A stretch of DNA of 64,000 nucleotides from Bryobacterales bacterium. GTDB taxonomy: Bacteria > Acidobacteriota > Terriglobia > Bryobacterales > Bryobacteraceae. Shown here in pieces: positions 40,039 to 47,278 of this stretch; position 1 is the first letter of the stretch; every line of letters begins with the position of its first letter. The stretch is taken from the NCBI GenBank assembly GCA_020847045.1, contig JADLCT010000020.1, positions 18,655 through 82,654 on the forward strand, given 5' to 3'. A program made the translations under genes and the position numbers. The notes under the pieces were generated by a model. The model was not told the DNA's origin. It made no database searches and saw only the letters and a program-made list of their open reading frames with translations.

Positions 40039-40458
40039 CTAGCGCGGCCTCTCGCCCGGCGGCTTCCACTCGCATGTCTCGGCGCCCATGATGCGTAAGC
40101 GGTTTCGAGCCACCCAGGCATACGCCGCGTCTCCCAGAGGATTCGACAACGGGGACAGTACGGCCGCCAGCGCCAGTCCGCAAACCGCTGCCGCGGTGGC
40201 CGCCGCCGCGCCCGCCAGAATCAGCCAGCCCGCCACGGCGGCCAGCCCAAGGTAGGTAGCCGGCGTCCAGGCCGCCATGCGCTTCACGGCCCGCCAGCCT
40301 CGATGTTCCCTCGTCCCATCCAGCAAAACGATGGCGCCTTGCGGCGTCGGAGACGGCGTCCACTCGAAGTGGCCCAGCCAGTCCAAACGCTCGCCCAGCC
40401 GCTTGGAGCGCGTGCAAAACCGGCATCCGGCATCGTAAAAAACCGTTGCTTTTCCCAT
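40039..40458 (-). CDS. DUF393 / DCC family thiol-disulfide oxidoreductase-like
   Basis: VFYDAGCRFCTRSKRLGERLDW. Confidence 0.82.
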   Translation of the reverse strand: MGKATVFYDAGCRFCTRSKRLGERLDWLGHFEWTPSPTPQGAIVLLDGTREHRGWRAVKRMAAWTPATYLGLAAVAGWLILAGAAAATAAAVCGLALAAVLSPLSNPLGDAAYAWVARNRLRIMGAETCEWKPPGERPR

Positions 40459-40556: not shown

Positions 40557-42500
40557 ATGAAAATCACCATTGCCGCACTGTTGTTTCCGGTGCTTCTGGT
40601 GGCGCAACCCGCCTCCAAGCCCACAGACGTGTTCGCCCTGATCCGGGAAAACCGGATGGCCGAACTGGCAACCTGGCTGCAAACCAATTCGCCCGGCTCG
40701 TTCTCCGACAAGCTGGGAAACCAGCCGCTTCACTACGCGGCCCTCTACGGCTCGCCCGAATCGGTTCACATTCTGCTCCATGCCGGAGCCTCTCCGGACG
40801 CTCGGAACTCGGGCGGCGTAACACCTCTCATCTATGCTGCCACGGATGCGGCCAAGGTGCGGATGATGCTGGCCGGCGGAGCGGATGTGCGCGCATCCTC
40901 CCGGCAGGGACGCACCGCGCTCCACGTGGCCGCCGTTTCGACGCAGGGCTATGAGACGGCCCGGATGCTGCTGGACAAGGGCGCCGCCGTGGACGCCGCC
41001 GACGACCGTGGCGACACGCCTCTCACGGCCGCCAACGCCGGCAACACACCTCTGATGCGTCTGCTCATCGAACGGGGCGCCAACGTCCGGCACGCCAACC
41101 GGGACGGGATGACCGCGCTGATCAATGCCGCCGGGGCCAACAACACCGTCATCGTGAAACTGCTTCTGGACAAGGGCGCGGACGTGAACGCCGCCAACAC
41201 CGCCGCCGGACGCGTGCCGCGCGGGGAGATTGCTCTGAAGCAGTTGACGCCGCTCATGCTCGCCAGTCCCTACGGCTCTCCCGCCACGGTCAAGACTCTG
41301 CTCGACGCGGGCGCCCGCGTGAACATGCGGGACTCGCGCGGCATGTCCGCCTTGATGCTGGCCATGGCCAGCGATCACCAGTCCATCGAGTCGGTGAAAC
41401 TGCTGCTCGCCGCCGGAGCGGATGTCAACGCCAAGGATCAGGAGGGCGAGTCCGTTCTGGATTGGGCGCGCAAAAGCCCAAACCCGGCGCTGCTGCGGCT
41501 ATTGGAAGCGGCGGGCGCGAAAGCGGCCGTGGCGCCGCCGCCGGCCCCGCAACCTGGCGAGCCAGCCTCCCTGCGCGAGGCCATCCAGCGTTCCGTGCGC
41601 CTGATGGAGCGGTCCAACCCGGTCTTCTTCAAGGAAGGCGGCTGCGTAGCGTGCCACCACCAGGCCGCCTCGGGTATGGCGATGCAGGCCGTCCGCTCCG
41701 CCGGGCTCGACTATAACCGCGAGGCCGCCGCCGGCGAGGCCAAGCTCAGCACCATCCTCACCATCCCGTTCGGCGCGCAGATGCTCCAGGCGTTTGAAAT
41801 CGGGGGTACTACCGACACGGCCACCTTCACGGCGCTGGGCGCCATGGCGAATGGCGTCGAAGCCGGCCCGGCCTCCGATCTGCTGGCGCACTACATCGCC
41901 TCGCGCCAGAACCCCGATGGTTCCTGGAGTCTGCACGGCATCAGCCGCCCGCCCATGGAAGAGTCCGACATCACCCGGACCGCCTACGCGGTCAAGGTGC
42001 TGCAACACTACGGCTGGCCGGCCCGCCGGTCCGAGTTCGCCGCCCGCATGGCGCGCGCTCGCGCCTGGCTCGAATCGGCCAAACCCACCACGTCATACGA
42101 AGCGGCGGACCTCGCCATGGGCCTCCTCTGGACGCACTCGCCCAAGGCAACCGCGGCCGTGCGGCAGGTGATGCATCTGCAGCGCTCCAGCGGAGGCTGG
42201 GCGCAGACGGCCTACATGGAACCCGATGCCTATGCGACCGCGCTGGCGATTCAGGCTCTGCGCGAATCGGGCATGTCCCCCTCCAGCCGGCCCTATGAAA
42301 AGGGAACGGCATTCCTGCTGCGCACGCAAATGACCGACGGTTCCTGGTTCGTTCGCAGCCGCGCCGCCAAGTTCCAGCCCTACTTCCAAAGTGGCTTCCC
42401 GCACAATCATGACCAGTGGCTGTCGGCCGTCACCACGGCCTATGCCGTCCGGGTGCTGGCTCCGGCCGCGTCAGGAATCAAAATCGCCGCGTCCCGCTAG
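40557..42500 (+). CDS. Ankyrin repeat protein fused to CxxCH motif and prenyltransferase/squalene-oxidase-like barrel, secreted
   Basis: Multiple ANK repeats (GNQPLHYAALYGSPESVHILLHAGASPDARNSGGVTPLIYAA...); GGCVACHHQAASGMAMQ; QNPDGSWSLHG/RSSGGWAQT/QMTDGSWFV repeats. Confidence 0.87.
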   Translation: MKITIAALLFPVLLVAQPASKPTDVFALIRENRMAELATWLQTNSPGSFSDKLGNQPLHYAALYGSPESVHILLHAGASPDARNSGGVTPLIYAATDAAKVRMMLAGGADVRASSRQGRTALHVAAVSTQGYETARMLLDKGAAVDAADDRGDTPLTAANAGNTPLMRLLIERGANVRHANRDGMTALINAAGANNTVIVKLLLDKGADVNAANTAAGRVPRGEIALKQLTPLMLASPYGSPATVKTLLDAGARVNMRDSRGMSALMLAMASDHQSIESVKLLLAAGADVNAKDQEGESVLDWARKSPNPALLRLLEAAGAKAAVAPPPAPQPGEPASLREAIQRSVRLMERSNPVFFKEGGCVACHHQAASGMAMQAVRSAGLDYNREAAAGEAKLSTILTIPFGAQMLQAFEIGGTTDTATFTALGAMANGVEAGPASDLLAHYIASRQNPDGSWSLHGISRPPMEESDITRTAYAVKVLQHYGWPARRSEFAARMARARAWLESAKPTTSYEAADLAMGLLWTHSPKATAAVRQVMHLQRSSGGWAQTAYMEPDAYATALAIQALRESGMSPSSRPYEKGTAFLLRTQMTDGSWFVRSRAAKFQPYFQSGFPHNHDQWLSAVTTAYAVRVLAPAASGIKIAASR

Positions 42501-42617: not shown

Positions 42618-43310
42618 ATGGCGCGCGTCCTTCAAGCTGTTATGGCGGGCATAAGCGGTGTTCTTCCCATCCCGGTGGCCGGTTCCAAAGCGAAACCGAA
42701 AGCACGCGTGGACTACCAGAATTCCGAGGAGGCACTGCTTGTCAAGCGCGTCCAAAAGGGCGACGAGTTAGCCTTCCGGGAACTGGTAGATCGCTACCAA
42801 AGTAAAGTATTTTCTATAATTTACGGAATCCTCCGGAGCCGCAACGACGCCGAGGACATCTCCCAGCAGGTGTTCGCCAAGATCTACTTCTCCATCGGCA
42901 ACTTTGACTTTCGCTCCTCGCTCCTGACGTGGATCTACAAGATCACCGTCAACGAGTGCTACGACTATTTGCGGAAGAAAAAAGTGCGAAAGCTGGTATA
43001 CGAGAGTGACTTTTCCGAGGACGAGGCGCAGCGCATGGAGCGTTCCGAGCCCGCCGTGGAAGCCTCTGTGCCCATCGACCAAAAACTGGCCAACCGCGAC
43101 CTCATCGTGAAACTGCTCGACCGCGTTTCGGAAGAGGACCGGCAATTGTTGATGTTGAAAGAGGTTGAGGGCCACTCCGTGGAGGAGTTGGCGCGGATGA
43201 CGGGCATGAATGAGAACACGATCAAGGTAAAGCTCTTCCGGGCTCGCCAGAAGCTCGTGAAGGCGGCTCAGCGGCTCATGCCCCGCTGGACCGGATCCTT
43301 TGTGTTGTAG
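42618..43310 (+). CDS. RNA polymerase sigma factor, ECF/SigW-like
   Basis: ELVDRYQSKVFSIIYGILRSRNDAEDISQQVFAKIYFSI; EVEGHSVEELARMTGMNENTIKVKLFRARQKL. Confidence 0.95.
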   Translation: MARVLQAVMAGISGVLPIPVAGSKAKPKARVDYQNSEEALLVKRVQKGDELAFRELVDRYQSKVFSIIYGILRSRNDAEDISQQVFAKIYFSIGNFDFRSSLLTWIYKITVNECYDYLRKKKVRKLVYESDFSEDEAQRMERSEPAVEASVPIDQKLANRDLIVKLLDRVSEEDRQLLMLKEVEGHSVEELARMTGMNENTIKVKLFRARQKLVKAAQRLMPRWTGSFVL

Positions 43311-44423: not shown

Positions 44424-46034
44424 TCAGGCCTTCCGGACCACGTCCCAATCCACAACGCCCACCTTCGCCGACCAGGCCTCCCACTTCGCCGACAACTCGG
44501 CCACCTTCGCCGGCTGGCTCGCCGCCAGGTCGTTCATCTCGGTACGGCCGGCGTCGATGTCGTAGAGTTCCCAGTTGCCGGGATAGCGGGAGACGAGTTT
44601 CCAGCGCCCTTGGCGGACAGCCCGGTTGCCCTCGTGTTCCCAGAAGATCTCGCCGTGCCCGCCGCGCCGCCGCCCCTCCAACACCGGCCGTAGCGATTTG
44701 CCCTCCAGCGGCGTAATCGTCCTGCCCTGGAACGCCGCGGGATACGCCGCGCCGCCCACATCGGCCGCCGTGGCCATCAGATCGATCAGGTGCCCGGGTT
44801 GATGCGTAAGGCGCCCCTTGCCGCGCACAACGCCCGGCCAGTGCGCGATGAGCGGCGATGAGATGCCGCCTTCGTGCACCCAATGTTTGTACCGGCGGAA
44901 AGGAGTGTTCGAGGCGTTGGCCCAGCCAATCCCGTAGCTTTGATAGTCATCGTCGTGTCCTGGCGGGATGGACGGGTTGTTGCCCACGCGGACCGTCCGG
45001 CCATCGCGCGTCCGTTTGGGAATATGCAGTCCCGTGGCCTTCTCCGTCAACACCTCGGCGCAGCCGCCATTGTCGGCGAGCATCAGGATGAGCGTATTCT
45101 CGAACTGCCCCGTCTTCTTGAGCGCCTCCACGATGCGGCCCACGTTCTGGTCCATGCGGTCAATCATGGCGGCGTATACGGCCATGCGGCGCATCTCCCA
45201 TTCCTTGTGGGGAGCATCCTTCCAGGCCGGCACATCCGGGTCGCGTGGCGTGAGCGGCCAGCGCCGGTCCACGAGCCCCAGCCGGATCATCTTCTTGTGA
45301 CGCTCCTCGCGCAAGGCGTCCCAACCGCCCTTGTATCGCGTTTTGTAGCGCTCCACATCGGCTTCGAGAGCGTGCAGCGGCCAGTGGGGCGAAGTGAACG
45401 CGGTGTAGCCGAAGAAGGGCTTGCCGGCGGCGGCGGCCTCCTCAATGTAGCGCGCGGCGTTCGCGCCAATCGCATCGGTGTAGTAGAAGTCCTTGCCCTC
45501 GGGTTGGATGGAGTTGTTGTCGCGAGTCAACGACACGGGATCGTAGAAACTGCCCGCGCCGTGAATCGTGCCGAAAAACTTGTCGAAACCCCGCTGCCGG
45601 GGCCAGTTGTGTTTGGACTGGTTCACGGGCGTGACGTGCCACTTCCCCGACATCCAGGTGTGATAGCCGGCCGCGCCCATCACTTCGGCAATGGTGACGG
45701 CGTTTGGGCTCAAGTCACCGCGATAGGCGGGGTATTTGCGGTCGTCCATCATGTGGCCAATGCCCGCCTGGTGCGGGTAGAGCCCGGTGAGCAGCGACGC
45801 GCGCGTGGGGCAGCACCGGGCCGTATTGTAAAACTGCGTGAACCGCAGGCCATTGGAGGCCAGCGCGTCGAGATGCGGCGTGCGGATCTCGCTGCCGTAA
45901 CAGCCCAGGTCACTGAAGCCCATGTCGTCGGCCATCATCAGCAGCACGTTGGGCCGCCGGGCCGGTTGCGCCTGCGCATTCGCGGGAAGAGCCGCCGCCG
46001 TCAGTGTGCCGAGGAAGGAGCGCCGCTGCATCAT
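44424..46034 (-). CDS. Arylsulfatase, secreted (sulfatase family)
   Basis: RPNVLLMMADDMGFSDLGCYG; CCPTRASLLTG (formylglycine CxPxR); ADNGG. Confidence 0.95.
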   Translation of the reverse strand: MMQRRSFLGTLTAAALPANAQAQPARRPNVLLMMADDMGFSDLGCYGSEIRTPHLDALASNGLRFTQFYNTARCCPTRASLLTGLYPHQAGIGHMMDDRKYPAYRGDLSPNAVTIAEVMGAAGYHTWMSGKWHVTPVNQSKHNWPRQRGFDKFFGTIHGAGSFYDPVSLTRDNNSIQPEGKDFYYTDAIGANAARYIEEAAAAGKPFFGYTAFTSPHWPLHALEADVERYKTRYKGGWDALREERHKKMIRLGLVDRRWPLTPRDPDVPAWKDAPHKEWEMRRMAVYAAMIDRMDQNVGRIVEALKKTGQFENTLILMLADNGGCAEVLTEKATGLHIPKRTRDGRTVRVGNNPSIPPGHDDDYQSYGIGWANASNTPFRRYKHWVHEGGISSPLIAHWPGVVRGKGRLTHQPGHLIDLMATAADVGGAAYPAAFQGRTITPLEGKSLRPVLEGRRRGGHGEIFWEHEGNRAVRQGRWKLVSRYPGNWELYDIDAGRTEMNDLAASQPAKVAELSAKWEAWSAKVGVVDWDVVRKA

Positions 46035-46090
46035 CGCTTCAGATTGTACAGAAGCGGGACTATAATGAGGCGCGAAGGAGTTCCTCGTCC

Positions 46091-47278
46091 ATGTCTGATT
46101 CGCTTGCTGCCGCATCCCGCCGCACTCTTCTCAAAACAGTGGCCGCCGCCCCGCTCTATATCCCTTATTCGGCGTTCGGCGCCAACGACAAAGTGAACTA
46201 TGCCTGCATCGCCACCGGCGGCCGCGGGCGCTATCTGATGAGCAAGTTCAAAGCGCTCGGGGCCGAATGCACCGCCATCTGCGACGTGTACGAGCCGAAC
46301 CTCGATAAGGCCGCCGAAATCGCTCCGGGCGCCAAACGCTACCTCGACTACGGCGAACTGTTGGCCGCGCACAAGGATCTCGACGCCGTCGTGCTCGCCG
46401 GCCCCGATCATCACCACTGGCCGATGCTGAAGGCCGCCTTGCAGGCCAAGAAGGACGCCTACGCCGAAAAGCCGCTCTCCTACACGCTCGAGCAGAGCCA
46501 GGAGATGGTTGCCGCCGTGAAAGCCTCCCGGCAAATCGTGCAGGTCGGCATGCAGCGGCGCAGCGCCCCGGCGATCCACAAGGCCAAGAAACTGGTGGAT
46601 GACGGCGTTCTCGGCCGCATCACGGTGGTGAAGCCGCAATGGCACTGGAACGTCTCGGCGCCCCTGGACAACTCGCCGCTGCCCGGCAAACTCGACTGGA
46701 AACGATTCCTGGGCACTGCCCGGCAGCGTCCCCTGGAGCCCATGCGCTTCCGCCGCTGGCGCTACTTCTTCGATTACGCCGGCGGCAACATGACCGACCA
46801 GGGAACCCACCTGATGGACGTCGTGCAGTGGTTCACCAACAACGGCGCGCCGCGTTCGGCCGTGGCCCAGGGATATGTGGCTAAAATGACCGGCTCGGAA
46901 CACCCCGATGTTTTCAGCGCCGTATTCGAATACCCGGGCCTGATTGTGAACTGGACGCTCGACTACGCGAACTCCTATCACAATGGCTGGTCGATCACCT
47001 TCCTGGGCGACAAAGGCACGATGATTCTCGACGAGGAAGGCTACCGCGTCTACGCCGAGCCGTGGAAGGCGTCGAATCCTCCCATTTTCGAGGAAAAGGC
47101 CCCGGTTCCTATGGAGGCGCACATTCAGAACTTCCTCGATTGCCTCAAGTCCCGCCAGCAGCCGAACTGCACCGTGGACATCGCCGCCGCGGCCGTCGCC
47201 GGGCCCCACCTGGCGAACCTGGCTATGTTTCAAGGTAAGAAGGTGCGCCTGGAAAATGGCATGCAGGTGAGCGGCTGA
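46091..47278 (+). CDS. Gfo/Idh/MocA family oxidoreductase, Tat-type leader
   Basis: SRRTLLKTVAAAPLYI leader; VLAGPDHHHWPMLKAALQAKKDAYAEKPLSYTLEQ. Confidence 0.95.
   Translation: MSDSLAAASRRTLLKTVAAAPLYIPYSAFGANDKVNYACIATGGRGRYLMSKFKALGAECTAICDVYEPNLDKAAEIAPGAKRYLDYGELLAAHKDLDAVVLAGPDHHHWPMLKAALQAKKDAYAEKPLSYTLEQSQEMVAAVKASRQIVQVGMQRRSAPAIHKAKKLVDDGVLGRITVVKPQWHWNVSAPLDNSPLPGKLDWKRFLGTARQRPLEPMRFRRWRYFFDYAGGNMTDQGTHLMDVVQWFTNNGAPRSAVAQGYVAKMTGSEHPDVFSAVFEYPGLIVNWTLDYANSYHNGWSITFLGDKGTMILDEEGYRVYAEPWKASNPPIFEEKAPVPMEAHIQNFLDCLKSRQQPNCTVDIAAAAVAGPHLANLAMFQGKKVRLENGMQVSG

Follow-up and report, generated by a model that had tools for sequence, protein, structure and literature searches.

The gene at positions 40557-42500 (+ strand) of the window, which here means the whole stretch of 64,000 nucleotides analysed from a Bryobacterales bacterium, most likely encodes an exported protein that carries a single c-type heme on an alpha/alpha toroid and may act in the periplasm as a redox relay or redox enzyme alongside cytochromes of the planctomycete type (PSCyt). 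The fold and the heme-binding motif are both known, but they occur here in a combination that is unreported in the papers and in the Pfam and NCBIfam models searched.

Domain organisation of the window protein

The gene is a complete open reading frame for 647 residues, as indicated by the reading frame itself, Pfam and AlphaFold2, with exact boundaries and a Shine-Dalgarno-like AGGAAG upstream of its ATG. The full-length architecture runs from a signal peptide through ankyrin repeats and a CxxCH motif into an alpha/alpha toroid. The protein had been proposed to be secreted, and a clear signal peptide was indeed found at approximately residues 1-20 (MKITIAALLFPVLLVAQPAS; 40557-40616, + strand), seen in the sequence and as a leader of low pLDDT in the model; a hydrophobic leader, judged by eye, was present in all full-length relatives listed. 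The N-terminal run of ankyrin repeats was also recovered, with matches far over the Pfam cut-offs for both Ank (145.5 bits versus 21.1, E 8.9e-44) and Ank_2. According to Pfam and AlphaFold2, this domain comprises a capping unit and about eight repeats (approximately residues 24-324; 40626-41528, + strand), and its helix pairs reached pLDDT values above 90 in the full-length model.

The toroid module of about 300 residues (approximately residues 339-646; 41571-42494, + strand) was delimited by AlphaFold2, Foldseek and alignment A1. It opens with GGCVACHHQ, whose C363 and C366 are the sole cysteines of the whole protein. Together with H367 they form the putative heme c attachment motif CVACH (41643-41657, + strand), assigned from conservation and located where the module's second helix begins. 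The original prediction had placed this CxxCH in the middle of the protein; the motif itself stood, and it proved to be part of the toroid module, not an independent element. The DGSW and GGW motifs reported for the C-terminal half were present as PDGSW, TDGSW and a single SGGW. Among the loops of the family, conservation in the alignments was highest in R-A-A-KFQPYFQSGFPHNHDQWLS (residues 602-623; 42360-42425, + strand), which contains H618 and was of low confidence in both structural models. A Pfam search of the window protein gave no match to PF07635 (PSCyt1).

Predicted fold of the C-terminal module

The expected barrel was supported by structure prediction. AlphaFold2 returned an all-helical toroid for the C-terminal module (29-sequence alignment; pLDDT 87, pTM 0.88), and the full-length model was of similar quality (27-sequence alignment; pLDDT 88.8, pTM 0.88). 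In a Foldseek search against the PDB, class II terpene cyclases ranked first (8pak, E 4.9e-7, TMq 0.64), followed by the thioester-containing domains (TED) of complement and alpha-macroglobulins (C3d/C4/TED). The A1 profile also matched class II terpene cyclases, as well as a cytochrome c555 construct (profile positions 16-49, E 1.5e-7); the latter resemblance was local and consisted mostly of the motif.

Leaving aside the C-terminal tail, the lowest confidence inside the module was observed in both models at the CxxCH loop (block pLDDT 61-65) and the QPYF..GFP loop (block pLDDT 59-75). The CxxCH loop lies just before the first inner helix and the R..KFQPYF.SGFP..HDQW loop just before the last one; thus, by topology, the two would be expected to meet at the mouth of the barrel. 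The low pLDDT of both would fit a cofactor missing there.

Matches of the full protein to Pfam SQHop_cyclase_N/C and Prenyltrans were weak and just under the cut-off, and with the isolated C-terminal half SQHop_cyclase_N rose just over it (28.2 versus 26.2 bits). The NCBIfam cyclase models remained under their cut-offs (TIGR01507, 19.6 versus 431.1 bits; TIGR01787, 37.1 versus 322.7 bits). The catalytic DxDD, already noted as not seen, was absent from the window protein: in the HMMER alignment with the squalene-hopene cyclase (SHC) profile (1gsz/2sqc domain 5), D-A-Y-A-T (residues 557-561; 42225-42239, + strand) stood opposite D374-x-D376-D377-T, without the central acids. A D.DD sequence was found in one of 130 modules, away from the aligned site. 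On the basis of DAYAT at the aligned position and the lack of DxDD, the identity as a terpene cyclase was rejected.

Conservation of the CxxCH motif and of other residues

Conservation of the CxxCH in orthologs had, like the barrel, been set in advance as a point on which the prediction could fail. Both cysteines and the histidine were invariant in all 29 modules of alignment A1, and in a wider set of 130 complete modules, drawn from several phyla, 128 retained CxxCH. One more module, on the minus strand of contig L106, carried the CX3CH variant CAGACH, and the last copy (L122) read CFGRH, lacked the middle of the barrel and looked decayed. This conservation is far above chance, and no other feature of the family is as well conserved. 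Many of the 130 modules came from a contig scan that used C-terminal peptide patterns and not CxxCH, so the conservation of the N-terminal motif in these was not built in.

The second x of the motif was restricted to S, G, A, T and, in one case, M across the 130 modules; residues of this type are usual at heme c sites. No cysteine besides those of the motif was present in 83 of the 130 modules, and the C, C and H were the only invariant residues among possible metal ligands family-wide. Alignment A1 also contained the conserved stretch R..K.QPYF...FP..H.QW.S, and R464, D557 and Q620 were conserved polar residues. All of the first 30 close relatives had His at the H618 position; it was His in 68 of 72 proteins of the ankyrin-toroid type and in 77 of 130 modules overall, and elsewhere, including the other architectures, it varied among K, E, P, D, N, Y, R, F and G. 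The wider alignment therefore ruled out H618 as a universal distal ligand, and among the 130 modules neither a second family-wide His, Met or Lys nor another candidate column was found. As far as the alignments can tell, a fixed distal ligand throughout the family is not supported.

Distribution and domain shuffling

The proposed check of domain architecture placed the protein in a large and apparently unnamed family, in which the order of the domains is swapped between members and a known cytochrome domain is fused to some of them. When 200 genomes of the same bacterial family were sampled, 130 (65%) gave a match to the module; some had several, up to 11, and the window's own genome had one. 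The module was sparser in a sample of the phylum (at least 8 of 297 genomes by profile search) and in the phylum to which the Rubripirellula MAG L099 belongs (at least 18 of 294), both being lower bounds with seven candidates scored per genome at a threshold of 1e-20. Relatives include MAGs of Bryobacterales, Solibacteraceae, Planctomycetales, Roseibacillus and Chthonomonas, and the plasmid collection gave no match.

Several arrangements recurred besides the ankyrin-toroid architecture of the window type and the toroid alone. The toroid-ankyrin order was found in L116-L120, L170, L176, L186 and L196, and PSCyt1-ankyrin-toroid in L047, L091, L093, L099, L102, L103, L107 and L193-L195, where PSCyt1 was confirmed by Pfam in L047 and L099 and the other assignments were judged from a second, upstream CxxCH. 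In L180 the PSCyt1 lies on the C-terminal side of the toroid; close relatives thus include covalent fusions to PSCyt1 at either terminus (N-terminal in L047 and L099). In L111 (8793-10894) a PSCyt1-ankyrin gene shares an ATGA overlap with a separate toroid gene, and both products have a leader of their own; this pair is a split counterpart of the proteins fused in other genomes. Toroid-HEAT-CxxCH proteins of about 1070 aa were also present (L127, L130). Within the same bacterial family, L127, L130, L132 and L141 encode proteins of up to about 1070 aa in which a CxxCH-toroid is combined with HEAT repeats and another CxxCH (CVHCH) lies on the C-terminal side, apparently a further undescribed architecture with heme motifs.

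Decayed toroid copies were seen in L107 (885-1559; CSSHNN) and in L122 (CFGRHH). The former shares its contig with an intact PSCyt1-ankyrin-toroid gene, which suggests recent duplication and loss. The L106 contig (1688-6448 and a minus-strand ORF) holds three genes of the family, one of them a toroid-ankyrin gene with CX3CH.

In a tree of 76 modules, the ankyrin-bearing modules grouped together and the toroid-ankyrin modules stood apart from the rest. The window type was nested within the PSCyt1-ankyrin-toroid branches, and L111 was placed next to one of these. Since its relatives bear PSCyt1, the simplest history is that the window lineage probably lost an N-terminal, second heme domain, in a tree whose rooting is not firm, whose support is SH-aLRT only and in which several deep forks are open.

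Genomic neighbourhood

Upstream and divergent from the window gene lies a gene for a DCC1-like thiol-disulfide oxidoreductase (40039-40458, - strand), kept in two congeners (L036, L037). The downstream neighbour encodes an ECF-type sigma factor (42618-43310, + strand) and is adjacent in two congeners; both neighbours are treated here as context. The segment 42618-44408 of the window contains this sigma factor followed by two small proteins (166 and 130 aa) without Pfam matches, an order that is kept downstream of the toroid gene in congeners; a sulfatase gene (44424-46115) is convergent to this cluster. Across 80 loci, no neighbour family recurred at a fixed position as an operon partner.

Pairs of DUF1501 with DUF1549-DUF1553 or of DUF1552 with DUF1592 were found close to the module in L047, L206, L212, L213/L214 and L216. 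DUF1501 is a family typical of planctomycetes, and these DUF1501- or PSD-adjacent loci belong to Planctomycetota and Verrucomicrobiota. We gave this adjacency little weight because in the seven such genomes counted the number of DUF1501 genes per genome was 46-88, with some of the figures being lower bounds. The window's own genome, which is acidobacterial, has 25 DUF1501 matches. It also encodes three Cytochrom_C_asm proteins over the cut-off (heme c assembly) and a separate full hopene cyclase (653.5 bits, over the family cut-off).

Proposed function and alternatives

The conservation of CxxCH, the barrel, the absence of DxDD and the separate SHC agree with the original view that the protein is a scaffold or enzyme bearing heme and not a hopanoid cyclase, the heme itself being deduced from the motif. 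Heme c is favoured by the export of the protein, the assembly system of the genome, the spacer residues, the scarcity of other cysteines, the tolerance of CX3CH, the similarity to cytochrome c555 and the PSCyt1 fusions. Heme is probably attached at the CxxCH; it would be bound covalently via C363 and C366 with H367 as the proximal ligand, and its carrier would be a terpene-cyclase-like alpha/alpha toroid and not a cytochrome c fold. The last inner helix would close the ring beside the first, so that the CxxCH and the conserved loops face each other across the barrel mouth and enclose the heme; this position, suggested by the topology of the model, is about evenly balanced. H618 would be a candidate distal ligand in the window subfamily, and the ankyrin domain could dock the module to a partner.

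PSCyt proteins are of unknown function; a role in carbohydrate metabolism has been proposed (PMC5615132) and redox reactions have also been suggested (PMC2754498). We therefore read the window protein, with moderate confidence, as a periplasmic redox protein that works with such cytochromes, be it a relay or an enzyme. The redox role with PSCyt-type partners, taken on its own, is plausible but a little on the doubtful side.

The main rival to the redox-relay reading is an enzyme or sensor, in which the same heme toroid would be five-coordinate and its cavity would serve catalysis or gas or redox sensing instead of electron relay. It would accord with a proposed carbohydrate role of PSCyt proteins (PMC5615132), and the chemistry envisaged is peroxidase-like or otherwise oxidative, on a hydrophobic or carbohydrate substrate. 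The distal ligand is not universally conserved, and R464, D557 and Q620 are conserved in a fold whose interior normally forms a cavity for the substrate. However, substrate, operon and pathway gave no clue, and the near-invariant His618 of the window subfamily (68/72) could occupy the sixth site, so we regard this alternative as unlikely. In a broader form, the toroid cavity would be the periplasmic oxidative active site of a new class of hemoenzymes, shuffled with ankyrin, HEAT and PSCyt1 domains in Acidobacteriota and the PVC phyla, which we consider rather unlikely.

A catalytic zinc at C363/C366/H367 would fit the overall fold class and the finding that C, C and H are the only invariant possible metal ligands. 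Cys/Cys/His is the zinc ligand set of LanC cyclases and Cys/His/Asp that of protein prenyltransferases, both alpha/alpha toroids, but the zinc ligands of LanC and FTase are spread over separate helices and not gathered in one CxxCH as here. The limited choice at the second x, the recurrent fusion to a cytochrome domain and the export suit heme c better, and no match to Pfam LANC_like was reported for the full protein or its C-terminal half. A zinc site is therefore quite improbable.

To our knowledge, AnkB of P. aeruginosa and Cj1386 of C. jejuni, supporters of catalase, have neither CxxCH nor toroid. They illustrate that bacterial ankyrin proteins tied to heme enzymes exist (PMC7567364, PMC11442138), and the window protein could by analogy be a heme chaperone or docking protein; this is very unlikely, as a covalent site suits a fixed cofactor and not transfer, and no catalase was present among the genes scanned beside the window gene.

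The remaining two alternatives are hardly tenable. A class II terpene or hopanoid cyclase would account for the fold and the QW-like motifs but not for D-A-Y-A-T in place of DxDD, NCBIfam cyclase models all under cut-off, export, and the hopene cyclase (653 bits) that the genome encodes elsewhere. An internal thioester joining the Gln of CHHQ to the second Cys of the motif, suggested by the Foldseek matches to C3d/C4/TED, weak TED_complement matches in a few members and CH-x-Q in 80 of 130 modules, is contradicted by the absence of the Gln from the other 50, by TED matches that miss the motif (L155, 221-304; L190, 168-265) and by the invariance of the first Cys and the His, for which it leaves no reason.

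The toroid protein of this soil-type acidobacterium thus probably functions in redox reactions and not as a terpene-making enzyme, and a label such as 'squalene cyclase-like' would misdirect its annotation to terpenoid metabolism. Should it indeed bind heme, the protein would carry the cofactor covalently on a scaffold familiar otherwise from terpene cyclases, prenyltransferases and complement, and it would represent a family found in 65% of the genomes sampled from one acidobacterial family, in many cases with more than one copy per genome. Among the papers searched we found none that joins the toroid fold with heme c or names this domain, and no Pfam or NCBIfam model that covers the module properly; an unpublished name, or one listed only in nr or InterPro, may exist. 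Because the toroid is fused to them, it also offers a handle on PSCyt proteins, which are abundant in planctomycetes and their relatives and whose function is unknown (PMC5615132).

Comparison with known systems

AnkB and Cj1386 are ankyrin proteins of bacteria with links to heme proteins (PMC7567364, PMC11442138). The TED of complement and alpha-2-macroglobulin shares the alpha/alpha toroid, but the window protein has CxxCH in place of the conserved CGEQ. In TED domains an inner helix begins with the reactive cysteine motif. The PSCyt1 (PF07635) proteins with DUF1549, DUF1553 or DUF1592 have in common with the window protein the CxxCH, the export and overlapping phyla; here, however, the toroid itself holds the heme site and no PSCyt1 domain is present. 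Class II terpene cyclases (SHC, 8pak, 8paj, drimenyl diphosphate synthase 7xq4 and MstE 6sbb) share the toroid and the QW-like PDGSW/GGW motifs at about 19% identity, whereas the window protein lacks DxDD, consists of a single barrel, is exported and bears a CxxCH at its first inner helix.
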